64,000 bases of DNA from Ehretia macrophylla. Lineage: Eukaryota > Streptophyta > Magnoliopsida > Boraginales > Ehretiaceae. Below, in pieces: positions 7,215-59,081 of the stretch (position 1 is its first letter; each line of letters begins with the position of its first letter). The stretch covers positions 20,905,425-20,969,424 of the forward strand of contig CM075771.1 of assembly GCA_037974665.1 (NCBI GenBank), in the 5' to 3' direction. Both the position numbers and the translations under genes were made by a program. Below the pieces are notes generated by a model, which was given only the letters and a program-made list of their open reading frames with translations, had not been told where the DNA came from and made no database searches.

Positions 7215-9368
7215 ATGGCTACACTCGCCCACCTCTCATCCCCAGCAAATGCACCATCTTCTCTTCACAAATTTTCTTCCCAAAATACCCTTACTCCTTC
7301 ACTCTATTCACTCCCCTACCACTCTTTCCCATTCCCCTCCATTTCTCTCAGACCCAAAACCAAGACCACATCAAAACCTCGCCACTTGAACGTCGTCGTT
7401 TCAGCTCTCAATAACCTTTCAGACACCGAACTGGTTTCTGTCCCGCCGGAATCTGACGCAATCGCCGGAAAATTCCCGTCAGCTTCTGGCGTATACGCCG
7501 TGTACGATGCGAACAATGATCTTCAGTTCGTCGGCATAACTCGGAACATCGCCGCCAGTGTTGTTACGCACAAGAAGTCGGTGCCTGAGCTCTGCTCCTC
7601 CGTCAAGGTTACACACTTTACATCTACTTATATATATGTATATGTTTCTGATATGCAGTAAAATATATGTATTTATATCTACACTTGAAATGATAAATTA
7701 AAATTATTCATTTTTTTGCAGTTTTCATAGTAATTGAATAAATGTGATTGTTGTATCTGGAAAATTGGAAGCTTTGCGGGGGCGAAGTTGCAATAAATTA
7801 AATAGCTGGGAGGTGATTTAAGTTTTTTTTTTTCCGATCAAATAGAATATAAGTAAATAGATTGCCAAATTGTCATTTGGTGGAAAAATTTGAACACGGT
7901 CAAGCTCACACTTGTTAAATACTAGGAAATAGCCTCTCTACCATAAGGCTGCTTACAACTACTTTTGCCAGAACTTGCCAATCTTAGGAGCCTTATGTGC
8001 TGTTTACGACCTTTATGGACATGGCTCTGGCAGTTAGTAAATTTGTCGAAATATATGCAGATGCTTAGGGAAGGTTTTCTATAGTTTTACCTGTTCAACT
8101 TATGGCGTCTAATTGTTATTCTTAAATGTAGTGCACTACTTTGTGATGCTACGAATTATTTACCTCCCGCCTTGGACAACTGAAATTAAGTTGTGATATT
8201 GTGGTCCTAGTTTAAGCACTTATTTTTCTAGTTTGGTTATCTAATTCAGTCTTGTTTGATTAGGAAAATAGCCGAGGCTATTTGTTGATCTTGATGCTCT
8301 GTTGCTCATATATAACGATCCATGATAGTGAAGATAATCGAAATGCTTGTGGTCCTAGTTTAATCACTCATTTTTCTGGTTTGGTTATCTAACGGAGTCT
8401 TGTTTGATTAGGAAAATAGCCTAGGCTATTCATCAATCTTAATGCTCTATTGCTCACATATAACGATCCATGATAGTGAAGATAATAGGAAATGCAAGCC
8501 TCATTCGATCCAATAAAAGAATGTGAAATGTTGCTTTCAGTAGTTAGATTTCCGTTGCTGAATATACAGTAGATAAGCACGGTATTGGTATATACAGCTT
8601 TCAGGCTTCTAGGATTTGCAACATGTCTAGCCTGTAATGATACAAGTAATGAAAAAGAAAAATAATCCTCTCAATGAATATAGAACTAGTGGAGATGTCG
8701 TACCTGTGACTCCTGTTTCTTTCTCCTCGTGCTCTTGCTTAGTAGTAGACTCAGACACCTTGCTAGTTACTCATGTACTGCTTGGTGAGAAAAGATTAGC
8801 TTCTCATGCATTGGAAGTACTTGTTATTATCAGGATTTGAACATCTTTTAGATTTTGTTTGTAGGTTCAGGTGGTGGAAGATCCTGATAGAACAGCTCTG
8901 ACACAGGCTTGGAAGACATGGATGGAAGAACATATAGCAGCCACTGGGAAGGTTCCACCGGGTAATGAAACAGGAAACACTACATGGGTACGCCAGCCTC
9001 CAAAAAGGAAGGCTGACCTGAGGTTGACCCCCGGACGCCATGTCCAGTTGACAGTTCCTCTGGAGGAGCTCATTGACAAGCTGGTGAAGGAGAACAAGGT
9101 GGTGGCATTCATTAAGGGATCAAGAAGTGCACCCTTATGTGGATTCTCACAGAGAGTCGTGGGTATTCTCGAACGTCAAGGGGTAGATTATGAAAGCGTC
9201 GACGTGCTTGATGAAGAGTATAACAATGGGTTGAGGGAGACACTAAAGAAATACAGTAACTGGCCGACCTTCCCGCAGGTTTTTGTGAATGGAGAATTGA
9301 TTGGAGGCTGCGATATCTTGACTGCCATGTATGAGAAGGGTGAGCTTGCTGATTTGTTTAAGAAGTAG
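7215..9368 (+). CDS. GRXS16: Chloroplast bifunctional monothiol glutaredoxin-S16 type protein (GIY-YIG plus CGFS glutaredoxin)
   Basis: Two exons, 7215-7607 and 8865-9368, join in phase 0 to give 298 aa, close to the Arabidopsis homologue. Residues 1 to about 60 are rich in Ser/Thr/Pro with few acids, like a chloroplast transit peptide. Residues about 85-160 form a GIY-YIG-like nuclease fold (GVYAVYD, then FVGIT). Residues about 190-298 are a monothiol glutaredoxin with the CGFS active site at Cys223-Ser226, [11 protein letters not shown] and GGCDI for glutathione and Fe-S binding. CGFS glutaredoxins carry [2Fe-2S] clusters to plastid targets. Cys127, just before the splice joint, matches the position of the N-domain cysteine reported to form a regulatory disulfide with the CGFS cysteine in Arabidopsis. 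An AATAAA lies at 9427-9432. The 1.26-kb intron holds a tandem duplication. Confidence 0.95.
8200..8497. repeat. Two-copy tandem duplication in the GRXS16 intron
   Basis: About 145 bp at roughly 8204-8347 is repeated at 8349-8495 with some 10 percent difference. Both copies begin TGTGGTCCTAGTTTAA and end CATGATAGTGAAGATAAT. It is confined to the intron and does not touch either splice site. Confidence 0.85.
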
Positions 9369-19641: not shown

Positions 19642-21159
19642 CTAGTGCCGCTGCCGCTGCTGTCCCGAGCATGCTAGGTATAGTACCAGTTCCTTCCCCA
19701 CCTCAGGTCGGGATAGCAGGGGTGGCGAAGCTAGATACATTTTCAGCTCTTGGCATTCCGTAGTCCATTCAAAATTCTTAGGATTCCTCAATATTTTAAA
19801 CAGGGGAGCACACTTGTCAGTCGACCTGGACATAAATCTGCTGAGTGCCGCGACCTTGCTTGCCAACACTTGGACGTCTTTCACGCAGGTCAGCGGCGCT
19901 AAGTCAAGTATCGCCTGAACCTTCTCTGGGTTGGCTTCTATTCCACAGGCTGTGACCATGAAGCCAAGAAACTTTCCTACCTTGACGCCGAATGCGCACT
20001 TTTTTAGGTTCAGCTTTATTCCAAAGTGCCCAATTACGCCGAAGGCTTCAGCCAGGTCGGCTACATGATCTTCCGCCCTTCTGCTCTTGACCAACATGTC
20101 ATCTACATAGATCTCCATATTTCGGCCAATCTGATTTTTAAAAACCTTGTTTACCATCCGAGTGTAGGTAGCTCTAGCATTTTTAAGGCCAAAAGGCATG
20201 ACCTCATAGTAGTAGAGACCTTTATCGGTGGTGAAGGCAGTTTTCTCTTTGTCTCCGGGAGCTATCTTGATTTGGTTGTAGCCTTTGAAAGCATCCATGA
20301 AAGAGAGTAGCTCGAACCCAGATGTGGCATCCACCATTTGATCGATCTGAGGTAGGGGAAAGCAGTCATTAGGGCAGGCTTTATTAAGGTCGGTAAAGTC
20401 AATACACAATCTCCATCCTCCTGAGGACTTGGTTACCAGTACCACGTTGGATAACCAAGTTGGGTACTGGATTTCCTTTATGTGGCCGACGTCTAACAAT
20501 TTGTCTACTTCTTCTGCTATGATTTGTTGCTTATCATAATGGAAGTGCATGCGCTTCTGCTTCACCGGATAGTGATTCGGGTCGGCATTCAGGTGATGCT
20601 CAATCACTCCTGGGTCGATACCTGTCATGTCAGAGGCAGACCACGCAAATATGTGTTCATTTTTTAGGAGAAATTGGCTTATACCTTTCTTGAGGTCGGC
20701 AGAGAGTTCACTTTCAATTTTTGCTCTCTTTGTTTCATCGGAGAGTGCCACCTCCTGCAGGTCTTTAGCCGGGCTGCCTCTCTTTGCATCCCTCTTCTCT
20801 TTGGGCAAATTTGGTCCCCAACCAACCTGGTATTTGGGTTGGAGAGAGTTTTCATAGCACTTCTGGGCTGAGAGCTGGGCTCCGCAGATAGTGGCCGTGC
20901 CGGCCGGGGTCGGGAATTTTAGGGCCTGGTGGTAGGTGGAAGGGACGGCCCTTAAATGGTTGAGTGCCACCCAGCCTAAAATTCCGTTGTAAGTGGAGTT
21001 GCAATCCATCACAATGAAGTTGGCTTGCATCGAAACCCGCTTATCTCCGTCTTCCAGCTTCAGCGGAAGGTTAATGACCCCTTCAGCTCGGTGGGCTTGC
21101 CCGATGAAACCAGCTAAAGTGTCCCTCAGTGGCCTGAGTTGGCTCATGTCCAACCCCAT
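19642..21159 (-). pseudogene. Reverse transcriptase of the Tat element
   Basis: A 505-codon open stretch covers the linker after protease and the whole RT palm: WRLCIDFTDLNKACPND, LLSFMDAFKGYNQI, MPFGLKNARATYTRMV and the catalytic YVDDMLVKS. It is the longest uninterrupted piece of pol. It is continuous in frame with the protease segment apart from one TAG just upstream (21160-21162), where the family has Gln. The last residues run out of frame near 19670. Confidence 0.9.
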
Positions 21160-21162
21160 TTG

Positions 21163-21741
21163 CTAAAAAACGCTGAGGAATAAGACTTCCGCCGAGCTCC
21201 CGGTGTCCACCATCAGCCTCTTTACGGTGAAGTTGGCTATTTCAGCGCTGATCACCAGTTGGTCATCGTGGGGCAATATTACCCCCTCCAAGTCTTTTGA
21301 GGAAAATGTGAGCTCCTCCACCCCCGGGGCCGGACCCCGCACCGGTCCATACTCCCTCCCAGCCTGAACATAACCCTTCCTACCTGCCGAGGTCTCCCCT
21401 CCCGAAGCCAGTCCTCCTGCAATGGTCTCAATTACAACCAAACGTCCGCCCCCAACCTGGCGCCTGGGTGGACTCCTCTCTCTATCTCTTTGATCATAAT
21501 TCCAAGTCGGCTGCGGGGCTACGTACCTTCGGAGGGGGCCTCGGGCTATGTGTGCCTCGTTCTCCTGTTTCACGTCTTTGCACTCTTCGGTGGTATGGCC
21601 GTAGTCCATATGGTAGCGGCAATACTTGGTTCTATTGCGCTTCTCGGGTCGGCCTTTCATCCTTAGAGCCGGAGGCAGGTGGTTCTGGTGCTGGATCTCC
21701 ATCAGGATATGCTCCCTTGTGGTGTTGAAGGGAGTGAACAT
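21163..21741 (-). pseudogene. Gag zinc knuckle and aspartic protease of the Tat element
   Basis: This open stretch starts in late gag, shows a CRYHMDYGHTTEEC knuckle-like motif, an Arg/Gly-rich linker and then the protease active site VDTGSSAEVLF. It is one frame off from the preceding gag piece (21632-21862), so a frameshift lies near 21740. It ends in a TAG before the RT segment. Confidence 0.85.
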
Positions 21742-21742
21742 A

Positions 21743-22867
21743 GTGAACCGGGGGTTCTGCTTTGGCTGTTGGGCTACTTGCCTCAGTCGTTTTGGACTTT
21801 ACCCCCAGGTTGGACTCGGGAGGTCTCTCCATTCCTGTTAGCTTCCTTTTCTTTGTCATCATCCTCTTTGCCTGATGGATTTCTTCCTAGTGTATATACC
21901 CTTCTGCTCGTACCATCAGCTCGGATACAGTATCCACGGGGTCAATTGCCAATGAGGATGTAAGGGGGCCCGACTTGAGCCTACTATGGTAAGCCATCAA
22001 CGCCATGGAGTCCTCCAGGTTGGGGATTCAGAGGGACTCTTCATTAAATCTGGCTGTATAAGCCCTCAAATTCTCTCATTTGTGTTGTTTCAACGACAGC
22101 AATGACGAGGTGTGACGCGTTGCACGTCGGCTTCCAGCGAAGCGGGACAAGAAAGCCTCAGCCAGCTGATGAAAATTTGCAATAGAGCAGGGACGAAGTT
22201 TTTGGAACCAGTCCAAGGCATTGCCAACCAGAGTGGTTGGGAATGTTTTCGTCTTCATGAGGTCGATCATATCATGCAAAGTCATATGGTGGTTGAAGTT
22301 TAGTAGGTGGCTGGCTGGGTCTCCGTCCCCATTATAGACTGCCAGGTTGGGCATCCGGTTGCCGGTGGGCAGTGGCGTTGCCAGTACTTCGGGCGAGAGT
22401 GGGCTCACGCCGAGCTGGTTAATGACCTTGGCTATTGCAGCAGCGGTCTTGGCCTGCTCGGGGTCAGCATGGGCCGCCCTCTTTCCTCTTGCCTCCACGG
22501 GTCTCGCCTCCGGCTCCAGGAATCCTTCTCCGTCTTGTGCTCGGGTTCGCCTCGGGGCCAGAATGCGGAACTGTGGGCACATGGGCCACGGTGTAGTTGC
22601 TTGTGGAACTGGGGGTTCCGCAGCTAGCCGGGCTACCTACTCCTTTAGCTCCTGGAACATCTTAAGCATTATCCTCATCTCCGGCGTCAGGCTGGAGTTA
22701 AGGTCTCCATCTGTGTAGGGGTTGGTTTCTAAGGCTAAGTGTATACGTTGGCTCGTTCTAAAGTCGGCTTGGGTTTGATCTTGGCTAGGCACTTGCGTGG
22801 CTTCGAGGCCCCCGTCCGGGTTGGGTGAGTCCTCTACCGGTGCGCTGTGGCTTCTAGTTTGTACCAT
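21743..22867 (-). pseudogene. Gag of the Tat element
   Basis: Reading starts at MVQTRSHSAPVED and continues in one frame to about 21740. It contains the capsid signature NLAVYNGDGDPASHL, ALDWFQKL and LAEAFLSRF, later ARFNEES and IPNLEDSMA. In-frame stops occur at about 22634 (TAG), 22076 (TGA), 22032 (TGA) and near 21888 (TAG). Three stand where the family has Arg or Gln, as expected from C-to-T decay of CGA or CAG. Confidence 0.85.
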
Positions 22868-23386: not shown

Positions 23387-23858
23387 TATTCTATTTGATA
23401 CAAATCTTGATGGGTTTAAGCTTAATTAACCGGATTCGTACCTCTTGTCCGGGAACTAATTGGGTGGGCCATGTTCATTACTGTCTAATCCAATAAGATT
23501 CCAATAAGTTTCACTAAAATGAAAAACAACAATAAAACAATTCTATTTTTTGTCAATGAACTCACCTAATTGACCCCCCCCCCCCCCCCCCAAAAAAAAA
23601 AAAAAAAAAACTCACCTAAGCCCCAGCCTAAAGGTACAGAAAATCAACTACAATGTACAACACATGAAGCACGACTAATCGCAATTATATCGCTTAATAA
23701 AGCCACCTGTTTATTTTGACCGTAATAATGCGGAATTCAATGATTGAAACGTCGTCATTTAAGACCATTCCAGCTTTTTCTATACCTCTTCTCCTTCAAT
23801 AAACTCGTCGAAAATTGAGAATTTTAAACCAAAATCAGGAAAAAGAAAAAAATTGAAA
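23387..23858. other. SAC promoter region with a C18-A19 homopolymer tract
   Basis: Spacer between the retrotransposon and the SAC start codon. At 23574-23610 there are 18 C followed by 19 A, and the tract together with four preceding bases is bracketed by the 10-bp direct repeat ACTCACCTAA (23560-23569 and 23610-23619). No gene is supported. Confidence 0.7.
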
Positions 23859-26800
23859 ATGGAAGCTGAAGCAAATGCATCATCAAGAGGCCATTTCAAG
23901 CTATGGAGCGAACTGGAATTACAAGAGTTTGCAGATCAGCTGGTGATCAAATCCTTGGAATCTCCTGACCAAGCCTTCTCCATCAACCGCTCCGATGGAA
24001 ACATCGAGAACGTTAACGGTTTGTTATTTTTTTTTTTTCTATTTTTTTGAGTTTTCTTGTAGTTATGAGTAAAATTAAAGTTAATGAAGGTTTTTTCACC
24101 CATGATTGGAGAATTCATTTTTTTTTAAAATTTATGAAGTATTGCATTACTTTTGTGATGTTTTTGGTGTCCTTCATGTTTTTTTAATCTCGCATTTTCG
24201 TATGTTAAATCCTTTAATTAAGAGATAAATTTGTTGAGGAATGTTGAATGAGAGGGTTTGGTCATTCTTATTATATATAATTGGTATAGATGTAAAAGAA
24301 CCGTGTTTTATCGACTTTGCATTAACTTTCTGCTACAGAAATAATCTGATAATATGGTTTATAAGAACGTGGCAAAAACTCCATGTGTTAACAAATACAA
24401 GGGCAGTGATCCACTTTGTAATAAATTACGGGGATATCATATTATTAAGTTAATAAATCACAGCGTCTCAGGGGTTTATCATATTATTTCGATAATAAAG
24501 TAGCCGTGTTTTGTCACCTTACACCTAAAGATCGGTCCTTGTGAGGAAATTTGCATGTCAGCCCTTTGCTACCTTAAAACTCCAAAATCCAGTTTATAAG
24601 AATGTGGCAAAAATCTATATGTCGTTAACAAACACAGTGGCAGTGAGCCACATTGTAATAAATCACAGGGGTTATCATATTATTAGAGTCACTCTAAAGT
24701 ATAACTTTGACAAAGCATGGTTTTTTTCCACTTTACGTTTAATGATTGCGTTGGTTTCAGCCTGAATGGTTTGACTAATAGGCTGCTGAGGAGTTCATGT
24801 TGTTTTGTCCATTATTACGTAGAAAATTCATGTTTTGTATATTGTGGCAGGAGATGTGGATTTAGGAGATCCTTCAAAAGTGTCTACCATATATGGGGTA
24901 GCTGGAACAATTAGGTTGCTATCAGGTATGCGGTGAACTGTATTCATTGTTAAAATCTTCAGTTGCATATGCATGTGCAACTTTATCTGAGTATTTGCAT
25001 TGGCACTCTAATGTGAAAAGGAGGCAGTGACACAGTGTGCATACTGCATCAGGGACGATGAATTATAGGGATTTCCTCTGGCAACTTGATTGTTTTACAA
25101 AATGTGTTTACAAAGCAAAATTCAGTTGAGGTTCCAGGTGCCCTTAGGTCAATCATAGATATGGACTACAATGGCTAGTGTGCACTTGGATAAATTTAGA
25201 AAATGAAAAGATTTCTGTCCTCTACATCTTTGTCGAACTAGTGTTATTGATCTGTTCTAAATTGTTTATAGGAACACATATTTTGGTCATTACTTCTCGG
25301 AAGGAAGTGGGAAAGTTTCTGGGTTTTCCTGTTTTCCGTGTGACATCTATGAAGTTCTTCTCCTGTAATGAAGCTTCAAGACAGTTAACCAGTCAAGAAG
25401 TATGGTAGTCCTTCCCTTGAGTTGTTACACGGCTTTTTCTTCGGGCTATCATGAGACACCTGTGAAGTGGCAATAATTCAATTGTTGCTAGCAAACTAAA
25501 ATTTTCTCTCTTTTGTTCTTTGGCAGAAAAAAGATGAAGATTACTTCATGAATTTGTTGAAAATTGTGGAATCAACTCCAGGCTTATATTATTCTTATGA
25601 AACAGATATAACACTGAAGTAAGTTAAGCACCTCAGTTACTCCATTCTAAGTGCTCATCATTAGATGAATGTTATCATGTACATTTCTTCATTTGAATGG
25701 GTCTAATATTTTTTATCAGCTTGCAGAGAGGATATAAACGTGCAAGCGGGTGGTGGATGAGTAAACCAGTTTGGAAGCAGGTCAGTTTACGTATTTCTCA
25801 AATAGGTTACTGACTAGTTCATGCTGTTGTGTCAAAGTATGATGATTATACTCTTATTTACATATGCTTGTTGTACACTGAATGATATAGACTTATAAGT
25901 TATCAGCCTCATGTAAGCTATTTGTTTTTGTAAGATTCTCTGGCCTTTTCTCTTAATGGGCACAGATAAACTGCATAGTTCCTTGAAACACACTACCCTC
26001 TATGGGATTCACTAGGGTATTTTCAAGTCAACTCAATTTGATTCTAAGCTGCACGTCTTCACAGATAATAACCTCCGAGTTTCTTTTATTTTGTTTTGTT
26101 TTCTTTTTACCTTCTCCTTTTTCTTTTTTTGTGTGTGGATGGGGGTGGTTGGTGACATGGTTAGATGCCTTTAAGCTTTCTGATCTGCATTGTGGTATTC
26201 CTCTAACTCAATTTGGCCAGTTCTAGACATACTGGCATTGAACATGGCTAGAACTCACCCACAACTTTTAGCAGTTAGAAGAATGTGAAATTTGTACGGG
26301 ATAATGCCCTTCATTTGCGCATAGTATTACCTGTTCTTACTTGCACAGCGTGAAAGAGGTAGTACACTTTATACTTATAAGGCCTTTTTTAGTCCCATTT
26401 GTATAACTAACCCGCATTTTGACATTTGTGTGCATGTAAGTTGAATGATTTAGAAGCACCTATTATTGTTCCAACTCTGATATTCAGATTTACTTGCAGG
26501 CTGATCCAAGATTTGTTTGGAATAGAAATATTTTTGAGGAGCTTATTGAGAATAAGGTAAGAAAGATTTCTTCCACAAAGGATAAGAAAAGGTAAAAAGG
26601 GATGAGGATAAATATATCTCCTCCTCAGTAGAGCTCATGTTGTTCATAACTCTCAAAAGTTTGTCCTTTTTTATTCGAGGGTTAAGTATTACATTTCGTT
26701 CTACAAATAAAACAACCTGCAGCATTAATACAAAGACATTCCATTTCCCTCTACACATATATACTGACAATGTTCATTGAATTTAAAATACATACCATTG

Positions 26801-29800
26801 TATTGCACTTAATGTTTACTGTTAGAACAGTTCCTGATCTTATATGTGCTCTTTTGCAGCTCGATGGGTTCATCATCCCCCTTGTACAAGGAAATATCCT
26901 GCCCTCCCCTTCTGTCTCCCTCTTCCCCTCCCCCGGGCCCCATTTCTAGGTTACTTGAATATTTCATTTGCAGTCAGTAAAGGATGAGTATTGAGTAATG
27001 AGTTATGTACTTCAAACTTCAAATGCCTCCTCAAGAAGCAATTAATTGTGATGTTTTTCCTTAACCAATACTTACGCTTTCAAGTTGGACAACTGAAGTT
27101 AGGAAGTATGCCAGCCACGGTAATGCTAATCTCAAGGAGGTGCACACGACGTCTAGGTGGAATAACTTCTGCTTGTTCTTTATGTTCTCTAGCTGTTGAT
27201 TTGGCTTTCTGCAGACTAACTGACTTCTTCTATTCAATTTAGGAACACGAATGTGGAGAAGAGGAGCTAATCTAGAAGGCGATACAGCTAACTTTATTGA
27301 GACTGAGCAGGTTCTGGAATTTGAGGGGATGAGGTCCTCCTTTTTGCAGGTATTGCTTAAATGCTGTTTTTCAGTTAAAATTCACATTTTTAAGGGTTGA
27401 TCTTGTAGTGCTATGTCCTTTGTAAAGAATATTTGTCTTTGTAGCAAATCAACTGTTGATATTTCAAAGTATGTAAAACTTATTTTTGTCTTTTGTTGGC
27501 GAATACTAAGTCTCAAGTGGCGATTATGCCAAGTGATAAGAGAACAATGTATTACGACTTTTTTTCTTCTTTCTTTTCTTTTTTAAGACAACTTGCCATG
27601 TGTTTCATCATGTACTAAATGTTTTAACCCATCCGTCTGAAATGAGGTTTAGTGGAGTTGGTGCTATCATATGTAGTGGCGGATATACATGTGGGCCAGT
27701 GGGGGCAACGTTAAAATTTCTATGTTATTTAAAAAAAAAAAAATTAAATATCTATGTATTTTTAGTTAAAAAAATTAAATAGCCCCCAAAGAAAAAAAAT
27801 TGTACTTGTATAGTTGAAAAATTATGTATTTTAGCCCCCACTAAGAAGAATTCTTAGATCTGCCCCTGATCATATGGATAGTTTTTTTTAAAAAAAAATT
27901 CTGGTTTTTGTCCAAATGGTGACTTGCTTTTTTTTTTTTTAAAGAAAAAAATTGTACTCCCTTGGAAACTAGGCACAAAATTTCTCACTTTATTACAGTA
28001 TTTCTTATGAGAAACTTGGAATAACCTTATCATAACTGGTTCTCAACCAATATTTTGAGAAAATTTAGACTAACTTTGAAAGATCCTATGTCAATGCACT
28101 TGCTGTTTCACGAAGAAAGCCCGCCCTTCTTTATTCCAGGCACTAATTATAAGCATATACTCTCAATCTCCCTCTTCCCTTTTATGGACTTGTCTCTTTC
28201 TTTGTAGGCTACTTGCAGTTCAGTATATTATATCTATGCACTTTCTTTGTAGGCAACTTGCAGTTCAGTATATTATATATGTGTACATATGTATGTATGT
28301 ACAAATTAAGATTTTTTAATGTATATTGAACATCTCTAAGGCATTCAGTTCTGATCAGAGTAAATTTTTAAGTCATATGCTCCCCCATTAAATTAATATG
28401 TAGACGGGTGTAAGTATAAAGTTCGCATAATGAAAAAGAAGTTAAATTTTCTGGGTTCTTATCAGAAATCTCCATGTGGATCGCTTTTCATTTACATATG
28501 TTAATTACTTGCATGTTTTTGTACTAATCTCTTACTTGGGTTTCAGATTCGGGGTTCAATCCCATTACTGTGGGAGCAAATTGTTGATTTGAGCTACAAG
28601 CCACGACTTAATATCATTAACCATGAGGGAACAGTATGTAACTCCCCCATGATGTTGCTGTGGATATCATAATCTCTATGTTATAACAAGGAGAGCATAA
28701 CTCTTCTTTTTCAATTTCTTCATTTATTTTCAGCCGAAAGTTGTAGAGAGCCATTTTCATGATCTCTCACAAAGATATGGAGAGGTTGTCGCAGTTGACC
28801 TGACAGATAAGGTAAGAAGTTCTTTTAATTTCCTGGTACAGCACTAAATAGCTTTGAAATCCTGCTAGCTATGCTTCCATGTGACTTGAACCCTTCGCTT
28901 AGCTGAGTTGCTAATAGTTTATTAATCATCTTTCAGCTAAAGATGGGCATGTTTCATTTTCTTGAAAATCTGTTCAGTCTTTAGGTCTATTTCACCAATC
29001 TTCTAAATGGTACCTAGTTTTTGTGAGCCTATCAGACACTATCAATGTTATATCCTTACTCCAGTGCGCGCCATCTTCATGCATTTGGCTGCTGTCTTTT
29101 GCTGCAAATTTAACATTTTCATAAGTTCCTCGCGGTAGCAAATGCGTAAGTCTTTGTATATTCTATTTGCCAGCATGGTGATGAGGGTCAATTGAGTATG
29201 GCTTATGCTGCAGAGATGCAGAAGCTGCCCAATGTGAGGTAAATTTTTCTTAAAGGTTTATGTATATTTATCATGGTATTATCATCTTGTCCTTGTTATT
29301 TTATTATCACTCCCGATGGGAGGCATGGTAAGAAACTAATTGATTTCCTTTTTCACAAGTGATTTTATTCTTATCGAAAGAATATTGTGTCAAAAGCTTA
29401 AGTATCTGTTGCATTGACTGTCCATCCAACCTACTATTCATGCTGGTTATGTATTTTGTTTCACATGCACAAATTAGCCTCTTAATTGATAATATCACCT
29501 CTTGTCTAGCAAATTCTATTGTGAAGAAAGTTTATTGATTATTACATACTTGATCTGTTGCTGCTCCAGATATGTGTCGTTTGACTTTCATAGATGTTGT
29601 GGCAACTCAAACTTTGAGAATATACAACTTCTGTATGATCAAATCTCAGAGGATTTTGAGAAGCAAGGGTATGAAAAATTGAGTAAACTATATTATTATT
29701 TTTCCTAGGAAAGAACCCACAATGCAGCTAATCTGGATTTCCACAGCAATGTTTTAATTACATGTTTATCTCAGCTGAGCAGATATTTCCTCATAGATGC

Positions 29801-31610
29801 AGAAGGGAAGATTCTAGCAGAGCAAAAAGGAATTATCAGATCCAACTGTATTGATTGCCTTGATCGGACAAATGTTACACAGGTCTTGATAAACATATTA
29901 ACAATCTGCTTGGAATCCTGAAAACATAAAAACTTATTACAAAACAAAAAATATAAAGTAAAAATAAAGAGAGGGAAAACTCTCTTTCTTGAAATTCTTA
30001 ATGGTCAAATGTGAACGTCATTTGCAAGTGTCATGCTTCCTCATGCATACACATTTGATGTGCAGAGCTACCTGGCCCAAAAATCATTGAATTCTCAGCT
30101 ACAGAGTGTTGGGGCACTTCCTCTCGAGGAGAGCACTTCAATCTGCAGTGAAGATATAGAGATATTGAAATCTTGTATGGACCCTTTTGGATTTTGGATT
30201 TTATAATTAATTGGCGTTTTTAATGAGTGGGGCGATCTTTCTTTGCATAGTCTAAACTATTATGCTATTGTGGTAGTGTGGGTGGAACACGGTGACGAAA
30301 TAAGCCTCGAATATTCTGGAACCCATGCACTAAAAGGAGACCTCGTCAGGTAATACAAGAGAATGTGTTCTCGAATCTAATGCCTTTTGTATGTGACATT
30401 CACTCATCTAACGGTGTAACTGTTGCAGATATGGGAAACAAACAATGGCAGGATTAGTTAAGGATGGGATGAGTGCCCTTTCAAGATACTACTTGAACAA
30501 TTTCCAAGATGGATTACGGCAGGCAAGATACCCAATGAATTGACAAATCAAGTTCCACTTAATCGTAATGAGTTGAGAGTCAAAAAGTGTGGTTTAGATA
30601 TAATAATCATAAAACTTGCTTGAACTGATTAATATGTCTCCTTCACTTCCAGGATGCTATTGACCTGATTAGCGGTCGCTATATTGTCAACAGAAACAAT
30701 CCCTCTCCATTGCAGCCTAGAGGATTTGACTCACTTTCGGTAAGCAATGAAATTCTGGATATCTACAACTTTGAAAGACTGTATACTCCTTTACTGGCTC
30801 TGTTTCTTACTGCTTAGATTTGAGTTTCTTGTAAGACTACCCTTGCTATATCAATATTACACTGGCTTTGTTGAGGTTGCTGCTTTTTCCTCAATTTCAA
30901 CATTTCTTGCTAATGGTTATAAGGCCCTCAGAGCCAAATTGTTACCCAAGATGGCCTTTTATTTATGTCTTTATTGAGTTTAATATTGACCAAAGATGGC
31001 CTCTTACTGTGATGACAACAAAGTGGTTGAAACCTATTGGCTACGACGTAATCCTATGGATTTTGAACACTTAAATGTGGGTGAACTATAATAGTAAAAT
31101 GTATACGAACAATGACATTTTTCCTGATTAATGCTCGGGCAGCTGTTGCATTTAATCATTTGCATGTTCATGGTTTAACCAGACGCGTTCTTCTCTCTCC
31201 CTCCATGTCCACGTGCGCACATAATATGTTCTCTCTTCTCTTTCCTACTTTTGTTTAAACAATCCAAGATTGCATGGATAGATGTTGATTAATGGGATTT
31301 GCAGATTCTCCCAGTAGCATCAGCACTGTTGATAGGAGGATTGACTGTGACATCCATATCACTGAATCAAGGTACCGTTTCTCCTCTACACCATTGTCAG
31401 GCTTTATGGTCACTTGCAACTTTCTTCGATCTTCTCCTTCCCTCGTAACAAAGGGCCTTAATTTGGTCTTACATTCGTGTAGTGGGGCGAAAGACGAATC
31501 ATTTCGTATCCTCTGTACTCTGTGCTGGTGTAACTGCTGGAGTGATGGCTCTAGTTAAGGCAAATGGAAGGCAGCTCTGTTCTAAACCTCGGCTATGTGG
31601 ACTTCTATGA
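23859..31610 (+). CDS. SAC-domain phosphoinositide phosphatase (SAC1-like, plant SAC6/7/8 group), 20 exons
   Basis: Exons: 23859-24018, 24851-24925, 25272-25399, 25527-25618, 25720-25780, 26500-26556, 26860-26893, 27076-27156, 27243-27349, 28547-28633, 28734-28811, 29174-29238, 29570-29668, 29783-29882, 30066-30174, 30277-30349, 30429-30522, 30653-30739, 31305-31371, 31483-31610; 593 aa with every phase closed. The SAC domain fills most of the protein, with [18 protein letters not shown] and the catalytic CX5R(T) motif NCIDCLDRT (Cys397, Arg403). Two hydrophobic segments near the C-terminus ([17 protein letters not shown] and [15 protein letters not shown]) form the hairpin that anchors this subgroup in ER or other endomembranes. 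The enzyme removes phosphate from PI4P and related lipids. Intron 7 is U12-type AT-AC, intron 17 is GC-AG, and intron 9 carries a hAT MITE. Confidence 0.93.
26894..27075 (+). other. U12-type AT-AC intron (SAC intron 7)
   Basis: The 5' splice site reads ATATCCTGCC directly after codon fragment GGA-A. The branch-site consensus TTCCTTAAC is perfect at 27057-27065. The intron ends in TTAC, 10-12 nt after the branch A. Splicing ATATCC..AC restores QGSFQ, the residues seen here in SAC proteins; no GT-AG choice nearby does so. These are the defining marks of a minor-spliceosome intron. Confidence 0.93.
27674..27868. mobile_element. hAT-type MITE in SAC intron 9
   Basis: 195-bp element flanked by the perfect 8-bp duplication ATCATATG (27666-27673 and 27869-27876). 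Ends TAGTGGCGGAT and, inverted, CAGGGGCAGAT fit the hAT CAGNGGCGGAT type. The interior is A/T homopolymer-rich with GCCCCC near both ends. Confidence 0.85.
30523..30652 (+). other. GC-AG intron (SAC intron 17)
   Basis: Exon end TTA-CGG-CAG, intron start GCAAGATA, acceptor TTCCAG. The joint gives GLRQDAIDL as in other SAC proteins. Reading on to the next GT meets a stop (TGA at 30541). Confidence 0.88.
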
Positions 31611-31644
31611 TTGTGTCTTGTGTGGACTTCTATGATTGTGTCTT
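31595..31644 (+). repeat. 25-bp tandem duplication across the SAC stop codon
   Basis: TGTGGACTTCTATGATTGTG plus CTTG occurs twice in direct tandem with no difference (about 31595-31619 and 31620-31644, unit 25 bp). The first copy includes the TGA stop at 31608-31610; the second lies in the 3' UTR. Confidence 0.85.
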
Positions 31645-33088
31645 GTAAAAATGGTTCATTGCTAGAACACTGTACATTAGCATTGAAAATAAAAAGGTTT
31701 CTATATTGAAAATTAACAAATTTCTGTTGTGTAACATTATTTAAATTATTACGATATTTACACGAATTTCAACAATAACAAATTTCTGTTGTGTACATTA
31801 TCTAAATAATTACGATATTTACACGAATTTCAACTCATGTATTATATTTGAACATCATTTTCCTTTAAGTTCTAAGAAAGCATATTCATCTCTAGTTAAG
31901 AAAGTGAAAGAAAAAACTTCAAAAAATAGGAGGAAGAGAAGAGTAGCTCTAAGGGCTCTACAAATGTTGTTTACTTTGCATTTACTTCCTTTTTGCTTGA
32001 TTCAGTTTGAGGGGCTAGATACATTTATCAGTATAAGATATATATATCTCTTGTTCCAAGAGCTAAAGAACCGAAAAAATAGAACTGCTTAAGCATTGAT
32101 GGATAAGTTTTTGCTCATGAAACAAATAACGATTGAAATTATTTATTTGATATTTATTTCATTATAATTCAAGTCAACGTTTCAAATATAATCTCGTTTA
32201 AATTATTAAAAGATAAAATTTCATGCAATTCTCTTGTATGAATATTAATTCGCTTTTACTTCTTATTACTTAAAGAATATAGTACGTGTTACGCCAAATA
32301 CAATTTTCACTTATTCCTCCCAAAACAAAGAGTATAATACGTATTTTTCTTTGAAACTGAAAAAGAGAAAAATAGAAACACAATCTACAAAATTGAGGGC
32401 CTTGTTTGCAATTTAAAGGAGCATAACATTCTGGGGCCATATCACAATATTGTAAAATATTTAGGTGCAAATTGGATAGGGAAAAACATTACCTCAAAAC
32501 TTGAACAACTAGTGAGAACGCGAAAAGAGCAAGAGGCGGGAAGTGTCGTGTACCACTCACCACCCTCAGCTACGGCGGTCTCCGGCCACTTTAACAGCTT
32601 GCTCCACCGACCGGAAAAATCCACGTCAGCTTTCTGGACAAAAGGCAAGTTTCAAAATTACAGCTAAAAATTGATTTTTTTTAGTATTATTTTAAGGTTT
32701 AACAGATAATAATATCTCCGACAAAAAAAGAAGAAACTAATAATAACATTTTTAAGGTTTATCATATAAAGCAACTATAGATAATTTAATACATTGTGTT
32801 GATTATGTTTCTTCTGCTTCTTTAATAAAATTTAGTTAAGCTGTGTTTGTTTGCTTAGAATTAGGCCTCTATTGGACAATTTTACATTCAAAATTGAATT
32901 GATTCTTTTTCTCGATTCCGATTCCACGTTTTGAATTCCAAGCAAACAAACACGGCCTTAGGGAATTTCTGGTTATGTTTTCTTGAGGCATATGATCTTT
33001 TCATGTTAGAAGAATCAGGAAGGTGAGTGTCGGTCATGTTTTAGTTGTGTAACATGGAAGTCACGGCTCCCATAAGCCTGTGTACATT
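31611..33088. other. Spacer downstream of SAC with small repeats
   Basis: A two-copy repeat of about 70 bp (AACAAATTTCTGTTGTGTA to ACGAATTTCAAC) lies at roughly 31706-31771 and 31776-31836. A small MITE is at 32839-32957. A GC-richer patch at 32515-32645 gives a short minus-strand frame without recognisable homology. No gene is supported. Confidence 0.5.
32839..32957. mobile_element. Small Tourist/Harbinger-like MITE
   Basis: 119 bp with inverted ends: left AGCTGTGTTTGTTTGCTTAGAA and right, inverted, GGCCGTGTTTGTTTGCTTGGAA. It is flanked by TTA on both sides, the usual 3-bp target of PIF/Harbinger-type MITEs. Confidence 0.7.
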
Positions 33089-34920: not shown

Positions 34921-37000
34921 TTGACAAAAAAAAAAAAAAAAAACTACCCAAATTCTGCACATTGTATGAGCTTGGTGTATGAAACTGCCCTTTGATTTTA
35001 ATTCAGGGTCATAGTAGCTCTTTATTCTTGGTGTGCAGAGGATATGGATGCGCAACTTTGAACTATTGATATCCGAATAAAGCCAAATATTTATCGTTAA
35101 TCACGTTGGACTTCGGACAACAAGTGACGTAAAGACCTCGTATAATCCTTGTCCGATAGTTACCGACTACGATTTCGTTAGGCCCAAGTGTTGACTAGTG
35201 GTAGGTAAAACGAGTAAAGAGAACAAGCCTTAGGTTTCAAATTTTTCCGATCATTCAACCAAATTCGTTAGACAAGCTTCCCCTCCCAAATTCGACGATA
35301 CTTGTTTACTTCTTTCTCATTAATTCGTAAAGCTACGTATATCCGTTAGTTGTTCCGAAAAAGCAACACCTTTGGGTTAAATTCTGGGCATGGCAAGAGT
35401 TTCTTACTCCTGCATCGAACTAGTTATTTATACCATGTTTGTTCATCTTGTAATTATAATTTTCTTAAATGTATACACACATTTCCAAACATTTTAGTTG
35501 GACGCCTGACTTTAACATATGATAAAATTTACACACATGGACCCTACCCCTATTGTGTAGACTCTACCCTAGTTATTGTCGGACGTTTGTAAGAGTTATA
35601 TACAAATTTGCTATCGAGGACTCGTTTGAAGTTTCTTGGACACATACCCCCCTCCCCCAACCGCCAACATATAGAGTCCTTTCTCCTTTATCTGGTAGCG
35701 TTTGTCAAGCAAGCCATGTCTCAACTTGATTGCACCCTTTTCTTTATCCTGCAGGCGCATAAGGTTTGTCTTAGGATGCTAAAGTACGAATCAATGCATG
35801 ACAAAAGAGAGGCGCCATGTTTGCTTTAACTCCCCTTGTCTATGGCCGCACATGCAAAATGTGCGTCATATTTGGTAAAGAAAGAAGCAAAAGCTACCCA
35901 TTTTGTCTTCAAGTTGGTGCAACTGTTTTGCCTATCAAGTAAGAGACAAATCATTTACGTGCTCTAGACGACAAAATCCGCGGATAGCCTCATCCTCTTC
36001 TTTCTTTTTGTGTCTCTCGGAGTTTTCAGTTCTCAGTCGGTGAGTGCTTGTGGGGGCTGTAAAATAATATATAGCGCGCACCTTCACCTGGCTATGCTCA
36101 TTATTCACCTCACATTAGCAACACATGGGAAATATCTCCCAGTCTCCTTTCTTTTTTCTGTGACTGCAAGTTAGGTCGGAAAATTCTTGTATTTACAAAT
36201 GACCATTCAACTCCTTAAATATAAAAGTAAATTCTAAAAATATATGGCTTATATATTTGTGAGAGAAGTCGAATGACCGAAGGTCACATACAAGAACTTC
36301 CCGTTAGCTAGTGGTATAGTGCAAAACATAGACTAATTCCGAATAAATTTTGTGTTTAACTAATCTAAAATATGTCTCTTCTAGACCAGGACATGCGTGT
36401 CAGAAGTTGAACCCTAGTATGAACTTGAAAAATCATGTCTCTTTATTTTACGTGTTTGCAAAGTTTAGCTAGTGATGACTTGTTTAAACATAGACTTGTT
36501 TATGATTCGGATTCAATCCAATTAAAAGATATATTCTTCAAGACTAATTTTGGATAAATTTTATGTTTAACTAATTTGAAATATGTCTATTTTTAATTGA
36601 GACATATATCTCAAAAATTAAACCTTAATATAAACTTGAAGAATTATGTCTCTTCGTGATTAGATCATATTTTTTGTCATGAAAAAAGAGAAATATCTCT
36701 GATATTGTTTGTCCCTGATCACGCGCTGCCCTCTTGGTGTTTCCTTTGTCTACTTATAGTTGAAGCAGCCAAGTGCCTGGTCTTAGACAAACATTGAAAC
36801 TGTAGCCTTACTCTTTAAGCATTCACAGAATACTTCCCTACCAAGTAAAATATGACGCCATAAAACTCATATAAATCCAATCTACACCATCACTCAACAT
36901 TAATAGCAATTCATCCTTTTCCCACCAACTCTTTCTTTATATACAAAAATTCCCTGTGTACACTTGTGTATCCACCATCAAGTCATCACAATATATCACT
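34921..37000. other. Spacer upstream of the DOG1-like gene
   Basis: A poly(A) tract (about 34926-34943) is flanked by an imperfect direct repeat AAACTACCCAAAT.CTGC (34903-34920 and 34941-34958). A two-copy repeat of about 115 bp with GACTAAT..GGATAAATTTTATG-type sequence occurs near 36331-36445 and 36541-36655. A TATA-like CTTTATATACAAA lies at about 36935-36947, 55-65 bp before the DOG1-like start codon. No gene is supported. Confidence 0.5.
36936..36945 (+). promoter_or_regulatory. TATA box of the DOG1-like gene
   Basis: TTTATATACA precedes the ATG at 37001 by about 55 bp, giving a 5' UTR of only some 25-35 nt if transcription starts about 30 bp downstream. Confidence 0.45.
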
Positions 37001-37741
37001 ATGCCTTTGAGTTCAACCAACAACAATGCCAGAGCCTTTGAGGCGTTTCTTGAAGGCTGGCTGGCTCGCCAAGAAACCTTGTTGCATGATCTCCTTTCTG
37101 TACAAGAAAGTTTTGATGATGGTTCTGATGATCATGAGGATGAGATCAGAGGCCTCATTGCTCGTGTTCTTGCCCATTATCAAGAATACTTTGAAGAAAA
37201 ATCAAGAATGGCCAACAGGAATGTATTCCTCATGTTCTCACCAACTTGGTTCACTCCATTGGAAAAGGCTTTCCTTTGGATTGCTGGGTTCAAACCCTGT
37301 TTGGCTTTGAACCTAGTCATGACCTCTGTGAGCGATTTAACAGAAGATCAAAGAGACAGGCTCGAGGAGTTGAAGTTTGAGACAAAGGGTGAAGAGAAAG
37401 TATTGGTTGAAGAATTCGCAAAGATGCAAGAAAGTGTTGCAGCACCACCATTGGAGGATCAGGCAAGGCAGGACGGAGCCCGAGGGTGGCGGCCGGTGGA
37501 TGGACAGGTCATGAGAGCGGTGGACACTGTGCTTGAGACACTGAAAACATCAATGGAGAATTTGATTACTCAGGCTGATATGTTGAGGACAAGGACAGCT
37601 GAAAAGGTGGTGGGCATTCTTAGTCCGGTTCAAAGTGTGAGGTTCTTGGCTGCTGCTGCTCAGCTTCAACTCAGAATCAGGACGCTGGGAAAACAAAAAG
37701 AGGCTGAAAGGATTCACAATGCACTATCAAATGGATGGTAG
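37001..37741 (+). CDS. DOG1-domain protein (DOG1-like)
   Basis: A single-exon 246-aa protein. Reading can be extended 45 bp upstream only through a GTG start, so the ATG at 37001 (MPLSSTNNNARAFEAF) was chosen. The DOG1 domain runs from about residue 10 to the end: FEAFLEGWLARQETLLHDLL, the acidic stretch DDHEDEIRGLIARVLAHYQEY, then SPTWFTPLEKAFLWIAGFKP and a C-terminal helical part with LSPVQSVRFLAAAAQLQLRI. DOG1 controls seed dormancy through heme binding and PP2C phosphatases, and the domain also occurs in TGA bZIP factors; this protein has no bZIP. Its own role is unknown; by length it groups with the DOG1-like (DOGL) proteins. Confidence 0.9.
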   Translation: MPLSSTNNNARAFEAFLEGWLARQETLLHDLLSVQESFDDGSDDHEDEIRGLIARVLAHYQEYFEEKSRMANRNVFLMFSPTWFTPLEKAFLWIAGFKPCLALNLVMTSVSDLTEDQRDRLEELKFETKGEEKVLVEEFAKMQESVAAPPLEDQARQDGARGWRPVDGQVMRAVDTVLETLKTSMENLITQADMLRTRTAEKVVGILSPVQSVRFLAAAAQLQLRIRTLGKQKEAERIHNALSNGW

Positions 37742-39672: not shown

Positions 39673-39745
39673 TGGAGATGCGGGGTATCGATCCCCGTAC
39701 CTCTCGCATGCTAAGCGAGCGCTCTACCATCTGAGCTACATCCCC
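39673..39745 (-). tRNA. trnA-AGC: tRNA-Ala (AGC)
   Basis: The minus strand folds as a full cloverleaf of 73 nt: acceptor GGGGATG with CATCTCC and discriminator A, D-arm GCTCAGATGGTAGAGC (A box), anticodon arm CTCGC-TTAGCAT-GCGAG with anticodon AGC, and T-arm CGGGG-ATCGATA-CCCCG (B box). There is no intron. A run of five T follows about 14 nt downstream as a pol III terminator. The sequence looks like the usual plant tRNA-Ala, so the gene is probably active. Confidence 0.97.
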
Positions 39746-52968: not shown

Positions 52969-53127
52969 ATACTTACCTGGACGGGGTCAATGGGCGATCA
53001 TCAAGGCCCATGGCCTAGGTTGGTGACCTCCATTGCACTTAGGAGGGGTGCCCGCCTAAGGTCAGCCCAAGTGGTTGAGCCTACGTCATAATTTGTGGTA
53101 GCGGGGGCCTGCGTTCGCGCGGCCCCT
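52969..53127 (+). ncRNA. U1: U1 spliceosomal snRNA
   Basis: Starts ATACTTACCTG, the sequence that pairs with 5' splice sites. Stem-loop I (ATGGGC..GGCCCAT), stem-loop II with the U1A-type loop ATTGCAC closed by CCTCC/GGAGG, the Sm site AATTTGTGG (53090-53098) and the terminal hairpin GGGGGCC-TGCGTTCGCGC-GGCCCC are all present, about 159 nt. USE and TATA upstream and a pol II 3' box downstream complete the gene. U1 snRNP recognises 5' splice sites at the start of major spliceosome assembly. I see no disabling change, so this is probably a working copy rather than one of the many U1 pseudogenes. Confidence 0.95.
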
Positions 53128-53137
53128 ATCCAATACG

Positions 53138-57200: not shown

Positions 57201-57664
57201 TCAATTTATTATGTACTTTTTAGTTAATTATTAATTTATAAAATATTTGAGTCAATAAAATATAATTTTTAAAAAAAATGTATTATCTTATAATTTTATC
57301 GAATTTATCAATTTTTTACACTGGTCCCAAGTCGGGACCGAACATTTTTATTAATTAAAATAAATTATTAATTTATCGAGTATTAATTTAAAGAGATTCT
57401 ACTGTACATCAATTTTTTTTTAAAAAAAATCTTAGAGTCTCGACCCCGGCCTAGCTTTGCCCTGCTTATGACTACCAAAATAAAAAAAAAAAAAAAAAAA
57501 ATACATTGTTCTCTATCACTTGCTCCGATACACTCTCGATGATAAGTGCATAAAAGCTGTTGTATCATCTTCTATATATTATTATTCAGCTATCGTTTTT
57601 CAACAACTTCACTATATACTATGGCCACTTTGATTAGTTCTTGATAGCTCTCTTGATTTCTAAC
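54274..57664. other. Long AT-rich intergenic region
   Basis: No gene is supported over 3.4 kb. A possible nonautonomous hAT-like element with CAGGG-type ends may span about 56649-57466 (left CAGGGATAGAACTAG, right inverted CAGGGCAAAGCTAGG), full of ATTAATTTAT words, but no target duplication is visible. Poly(A) tracts lie at 56040-56052 and 57482-57500. Confidence 0.45.
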
Positions 57665-59081
57665 ATGGCCAACTCAGAGAAACCATCTTCGGCCAAGTGT
57701 TTCTCAGGCCTCATGCGCAGGCTTTTGTGCAGTGGCAGCCTCCCAACGCACCCATCTGATGATATGTTTATCGAGTGCAAAAGCAAAGTTATTGATCATC
57801 CTGAAGGAGTTTCGAAACCAAACGTGCAAGCTGCATCAACACCAGGCATAGTGGCAAGGCTAATGGGACTAGATTCATTGCCTAATATCAATTTATCACC
57901 AAAACAAACAACATTTGGTTCATTTCTGCGTAGCAGGTCAGCTAATTCCCTTGATTACCTCCCCGCACCCTTTGATTTAAACAAAAAGCTTCAGCACAGA
58001 AGAGTTAAGACATCGATATCATTTCGCGAAGTTTCTGGCTCTGTACATCAGGATGGACATGAGCATTTCGTTGTCGTACGGTTTGAGAAAGTACTGAACG
58101 AAGAGAAGGAAGAAAAAGGATTGCGAATGAGAAAATTACCAGAGGTGAGATCATGTCGACAGGTAAAGCAGAAGAGGGTGGTGCAGAGTAAAGTCTATGA
58201 CAACAATGGAGAAAAATTTATGGTGAAGAAGTCATCGAAGAGGGTAAAAGACTCGAAGAGAGTGCATCCTAGATCGTCCTTGAAGGTTGAGAATGTGACA
58301 TCTCAGAGAAAAAATAACAGTAAAAGAGCAAGGCCAGGTTTAAAGGAGAGAAGGTTGATGAAACCAGTTGACTCCAAAGAAGCATCTGCTCAAGTAGGCT
58401 TCAAGAAGTTGGGAAAGAACAAATATTTGGGTAATAAGCTAAGACTCGATTGTCACACAGAAAATACAAGTCCAGCCTTAGACTTATGCCTTCTACATTC
58501 TCAGTCGCATCAAAAAGTTACTAAACCAGGTTTGTATCATGAAATGTTTCTCATTGCGCAAAACAATCTATCATGTTCTACTTCTTTTTTTTTTTGTTTT
58601 TTTGTTATAATAGATGTTGAAACTATTATTCGAACTTAAAACTCTAATTATAACGGGTTGCTATTCACTATTCCACCCAACTCTTGAGTTTACGATGTGT
58701 CATTTTTTAGTAGTCTTACAATGTTTCAAGTGAGAAATAATTATTGTGTCTTGTGATTTCTTTTGTACAGGGAATTCAAGGCCAACAAATCCAAAGAATT
58801 GCCCACAAGGATTCACAAACATTGAGGGATCACTTTGCAATAATAAACGAAAAAGCGCAATCGCAAGCAATTTTGAGGAGCCAATGAAGACTTTGGAGAC
58901 CGATTATTACACGAAGATGCTCACAGATATCTGCAGATTGTCTGAAGATGATATTAAAGGGACATCTTGGGTAGATTGTCAAGTGTTGTCATTTGAAGAT
59001 TTAGAAGAGATATGTGTCCATTTTGGCCAACAAATTTTCGAATTACTACTGAACCAGGTAGTTGATGAGCTTCTAATATGA
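57665..59081 (+). CDS. DUF3741 / TRM-like protein
   Basis: Two exons, 57665-58529 and 58771-59081, join in phase 1 to give 391 aa. An earlier GTG/ATT-frame extension to 57641 is possible but the ATG at 57665 (MANSEKPSSAKC) is the natural start. Residues 59-73 carry the DUF3741-associated motif STPGIVARLMGLDSLP found in the TRM/LONGIFOLIA group, some of which bring TON1 and protein phosphatase 2A to microtubules. The middle is strongly basic (many Lys/Arg/Ser) and probably disordered. The C-terminus, from YYTKMLTDICRL to LLNQVVDELLI, is acidic and helical like the conserved TRM tail. The protein is short for a TRM; which member it matches is not clear. Confidence 0.78.

Follow-up and report, generated by a model that had tools for sequence, protein, structure and literature searches.

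A candidate U12-type AT-AC intron in a Sac1-type phosphatase gene of Ehretia macrophylla, with U12-like GT-AG counterparts in two paralogues

The window considered here is a 64-kb stretch of DNA (G000:C8:20905425-20969424), and the genome searched with it comprises 1.58 Gb in 20 contigs. The principal gene of the window consists of 20 coding exons and runs from ATG to TGA (Table 1). The joined exons amount to 1782 nt including the stop codon and, in the exon-model translation, specify 593 residues with no internal stops. The protein matched the Pfam domain Syja_N at 264.3 bits (E 1.9e-78, cut-off 27), and the closest solved structure is that of yeast Sac1 (4tu3, E 5e-74; 3lwt, E 1.7e-72). CX5R(T/S) is the catalytic motif of Sac1-like phosphatases; in exon 14 this motif is intact and aligned to RTNCMDCLDRTN of yeast Sac1. 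Judged by its sequence, the gene encodes a Sac1-type phosphoinositide phosphatase, with putative PI4P phosphatase activity. The protein has in common with plant SAC clade II (AtSAC6, AtSAC7/RHD4 and AtSAC8) the Sac1-like domain and yeast Sac1 as best solved relative. Two C-terminal transmembrane segments are a mark of clade II, and hydrophobic C-terminal stretches were discernible by eye in the predicted protein.

Table 1. Positions of the phosphatase gene, the parts of it discussed in the text, and other features of the window
Feature	Position	Strand	Remarks
SAC-domain (Sac1-like) phosphoinositide phosphatase gene	23859..31610	+	20 coding exons
Exon 7	26860..26893	+	11 residues and the first base of a Ser codon
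Intron 7, predicted U12-type, AT-AC subtype	26894..27075	+	182 nt, phase 1; based on signals, frame, homology and a co-located intron in each of the paralogues C2 and C7
Predicted U12-type donor, ATATCCT	26894..26900	+	
Predicted branch site, TTCCTTAAC	27057..27065	+	branch A at 27064
AC acceptor	27074..27075	+	
Exon 8	27076..27156	+	SFQVGQLKL...CTRRL
Exon 14	29783..29882	+	CIDCLDRTN (catalytic CX5R motif, exon-model translation); downstream of intron 7
Intron 17, GC-AG	30523..30652	+	CAG|GCAAGA; probably U2-type
Glutaredoxin-matching reading frame	8871-9368	+	CGFS type by eye
Gypsy-type retrotransposon remains	19642-22582	-	matches to gag and reverse transcriptase; roughly 1.3 kb before the SAC ATG
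C run followed by A run	23574-23610		roughly 250 nt before the SAC ATG
Short direct repeats	31597-31830	+	two copies of a unit of about 25 nt and, further on, two of one of about 60 nt (by eye); at and after the SAC stop codon
DOG1 domain reading frame	36956-37741	+	
tRNA-Ala (AGC) gene	39673-39745	-	
U1 snRNA gene	52969-53129	+	full length, 150.8 bits
VARLMGL motif reading frame	57641-58639	+	

Of the 19 introns of the gene, 17 are of the GT-AG type; the exceptions are intron 7 (AT-AC) and intron 17 (GC-AG). At intron 17, GC in the window gene corresponds to GT in the two paralogues described below, and these paralogues have GC at intron 2.

U12-type introns carry the donor consensus ATATCCTTT, with RTATCCT at the intron start as the form that defines membership, and the branch-site consensus TTCCTTRAY, with the branch A about 10-15 nt from the acceptor; they also lack a strong 3' polypyrimidine tract. 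Exon 7 of the window gene terminates in ...GTACAAGGAA at 26893 and intron 7 starts with ATATCCTGCC at 26894; the intron terminates in ...CAATACTTAC at 27075, and exon 8 starts with GCTTTCAAG at 27076. The donor core ATCCT (+3 to +7) is matched at 5/5 positions in intron 7 versus 1-3/5 in the other 18 introns of the gene, and the branch site at 9/9 versus 4-7/9. Introns 6 and 17 reach 7/9 at the branch site, with donors that are not U12-like. The pyrimidine fraction near the 3' end of intron 7 is 0.70 and that of the other introns 0.45-0.85, so this trait is not distinctive. At donor position +8 intron 7 has G rather than the T of the consensus, and the 8-letter word ATATCCTT is absent there. 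In donor, branch site, short distance from branch site to acceptor and AC end, intron 7 is as plant U12-type AT-AC introns are; apart from the G at +8, nothing essential differs. The sequence-only reading had placed a U12-type AT-AC intron at 26894..27075 in a SAC phosphatase gene, with an ATATCCT donor, a perfect TTCCTTAAC and AC 10-12 nt later. The exon model, the SAC-domain match and the splice signals all agree with it, and the AC lies 11 nt after the branch A. It had also called AT-AC introns a minority of U12 introns, in keeping with a share of 13-26% in four plants given in Table 2 of PMC7367187, the part of that source consulted.

The combination of signals was compared with chance expectation. 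The pattern was defined as ATATCCT followed within 3 kb by TTCCTTAAY and by AC 6-16 nt past the branch A, and chance was modelled by simulating 64 kb of sequence 150 times with a first-order Markov model and scanning both strands. In the window, the pattern occurred once on the forward strand and not on the reverse strand; per 64 kb and both strands, the mean expectation was 0.23 matches, or 0.06 with donor and branch site less than 500 nt apart. The single match is compatible with AC ends at 27071 and 27075, only the latter of which suits the reading frame. Taken alone, ATATCCTT was found 3 times (3.91 expected) and TTCCTTAAC twice (0.90 expected). Lone words of this kind are common, and therefore the weight rests on their combination, located exactly at the exon boundary that homology demands.

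Conventional U2-type splicing could have operated at nearby GT-AG (or GC-AG) sites, with the U12 signals being coincidental. We enumerated the splice pairs between the start of exon 7 and the end of exon 8 that keep the frame, contain no stop and leave introns of more than 40 nt. There were 41 such pairs (12 GT-AG, 8 GC-AG and 21 AT-AC), so frame-keeping GT-AG pairs do exist. However, QGSFQ was restored by one pair only, 26894/27075, whose phase-1 join A|GC supplies the Ser of LVQGSFQ; even with any end letters allowed, this was the sole pair producing LVQGSFQVGQ. The earlier claim that GT-AG splicing cannot restore QGSFQ holds for all 12 GT-AG pairs. Against the peptide of the C7 paralogue, the scores were 94 for the AT-AC pair 26894/27075, 72 for the best of the GT-AG pairs and 62 for the best of the GC-AG pairs. 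The best GT-AG pair (26914/27098) has a poor donor, GTCTCCCTC, and turns SFQVGQLK into NILPSPS, which breaks the homology.

Spliced alignment gave the same result. Employing part of the C2 paralogue protein against positions 25500-28700 of the window, the alignment picked 26894-27075 with a score of 345.1, versus 331.7 when limited to GT/GC-AG, with a script in which AT-AC ends cost a penalty and U12 motifs earned nothing; the comparison is not fully independent, in that the window protein had guided the modelling of C2, in which ATCCT donors also received a bonus. The residues at the C2 join derive from the DNA of C2 itself. The GT-AG reading, moreover, offers no account of the corresponding U12-like intron in two paralogues, and we regard it as highly improbable.

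These paralogues lie on contigs C2 and C7. Their Sac1-type proteins are 46.3% (C2) and 48.1% (C7) identical to that of the window gene and 88.8% identical to each other; two is a lower bound for the number of sister genes, as the search scores the best candidates only. Of the 19 intron positions and phases of the window gene, each paralogue has 18; the exception, the first intron, is displaced by one codon in C2 and by two codons in C7, within a poorly aligned stretch. At the codon and phase of intron 7, both paralogues have an intron of the form GTATCCTTG...CAG, a U12-like GT-AG subtype with the branch A 11 nt from the end; the branch-like sites, AACCTTAAT and AATCTTAAC, each match TTCCTTAAC at 6/9 positions. 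Judged by sequence only, the sister introns would belong to the U12 class. The U12 feature is not peculiar to the window gene, since both sister genes found have a U12-like intron there. Six other SAC loci are of clade I type by sequence. Three of them (L011, L012 and L014) read through this region via VALVYGFFKQ with no intron at this codon, and in L013, L015 and L016 that stretch was not found by pattern search.

An AT-AC intron might also be excised by the major (U2) spliceosome, as for human SCN4A intron 21, and terminal dinucleotides alone are not proof of class, as a portion of PMC2831892 points out. According to the same portion, however, +5 is G in those AT-AC introns of sodium-channel genes that are of U2 type; in intron 7 it is C, within ATCCT. 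Its branch site is a perfect U12 type, and the donors of the paralogues are U12-like. We give this route very little credence. Least probable of all is a pseudogene or an error of assembly, which would make the intron irrelevant: the reading frame stays open through all 20 exons, usable splice sites delimit each of the 19 introns, the catalytic motif has been preserved, and each paralogue shares all but one of the intron positions. A processed copy was sought with a 432-nt spliced stretch (exons 4-9) against the genome, and only the exons of the gene itself were recovered (6 matches), in a search whose low sensitivity is indicated by its also missing the paralogues.

U12-type AT-AC splicing is supported as the sole reading found that fits splice signals, frame, homology and paralogues alike. 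Almost certainly, 26894-27075 is a genuine U12-type AT-AC intron of a Sac1-type gene, inherited from before the gene duplication and with a switch of subtype in one lineage. Because codon and phase of the U12-like intron agree between the window gene and the paralogues, a U12 intron most likely stood there before the window gene split from C2/C7. In the two sister genes it is present as the predicted GT-AG subtype of U12 intron, and one lineage most likely switched subtype after the split. In passages of PMC2831892, AT-AC and GT-AG subtypes are mixed in 36 U12DB clusters; switching is described as widely held to be one-way, with AT-AC to GT-AG as the proposed direction, and this view is said to need revision. 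As in those clusters, the same U12 position here carries both subtypes; in U12DB, however, the positions compared are orthologous, whereas here they belong to paralogues in one genome, three Sac1-type phosphatase genes.

The genome was also examined for components of the minor spliceosome. It has one U12 snRNA gene (90.9 bits). The box of this RNA that recognises branch sites, GAGTAAGGAAAA, can pair with TTCCTT(A)AC once the branch A is skipped; on the same terms, the branch site of intron 7 would form 8 base pairs with the GTAAGGAA box in the U12 RNA. The predicted U12 pairing energy is -9.5 kcal/mol for the branch site of intron 7 versus -5.8 and -4.1 kcal/mol for those of the paralogues. 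U11 was found twice, both copies starting with AAAAAGGG, and U6atac 7 times (best 88.9 bits). Predicted pairing of the donor of intron 7 is -4.8 kcal/mol with U11 and -4.6 kcal/mol with U6atac, versus -6.0 and -5.5 kcal/mol for the paralogues; it is weaker because +8 of the intron 7 donor is G, not T. For U4atac the search gave no match in the genome, and the same search was silent in control genomes too. On C19, a locus of the DIM1 family codes for a protein resembling TXNL4B, with E 4.6e-44 to PDB TXNL4B and 6.8e-18 to U5-15kD/Dim1. Three matches to the CCDC84/CENATAC family fall in one locus on C13. In Arabidopsis, AT-AC introns reportedly require DROL1, the plant TXNL4B orthologue, according to a citation in PMC11039992; in human cells, CENATAC is reported to be required for AT-AN minor introns (PMC8280824).

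We strongly infer that excision of intron 7 depends on the minor spliceosome. U11 would read ATATCCT and U12 would read TTCCTTAAC; U6atac would then take the place of U11 at the donor, and the AC 11 nt past the branch would be joined so that A|GC encodes the Ser of QGSFQ. Were intron 7 retained, translation would run through 29 codons of exon 7 and intron sequence and then reach a stop. This stop lies far upstream of exon 14, and therefore the predicted protein would be truncated before, and would lose, the catalytic CX5R motif.

AT-AC U12 introns are of a known kind; what is new here is the contrast, within one genome, between an A-type intron and its G-type counterparts at a single homologous position. 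Among the literature matches listed, no paper linked a SAC gene (including SACM1L) to a U12 intron and none reported a subtype switch between Sac1-type paralogues; an entry in supplementary tables, in the Arabidopsis DROL1 study or in ERISdb, U12DB or IAOD is quite possible. SAC gene names are absent from the main text of an Arabidopsis U12 paper (PMC4892727), as far as the accessible portion of that text extends.

Gene finders restricted to GT-AG/GC-AG introns would misannotate the SAC domain of this protein. Arabidopsis sac6/7/8 double and triple mutants have delayed or lethal embryos, according to the section of PMC8717918 consulted; a family that is essential in combination in that plant seems linked to the minor spliceosome through each of the three genes identified in this genome. 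With equal branch spacing on both sides, the A-type/G-type contrast would serve as a clean internal control when asking how selectively DROL1/TXNL4B and CENATAC act on the two subtypes. A more speculative idea, to which we attach only a minor chance, is that loss or reduced expression of the A-type-specific factors (TXNL4B/DROL1, CENATAC) would silence the window paralogue only and general defects of the minor spliceosome would hit all three genes; PI4P phosphatase output would then be a graded readout, with paralogue-specific control exerted via the end letters of an intron.

The window also contains a gene for an RNA of the major spliceosome, U1 snRNA (Table 1). Its 5' end, ATACTTACCTG, is intact, and upstream of it lies TCCCACATCG, which we take to be the plant snRNA upstream element.
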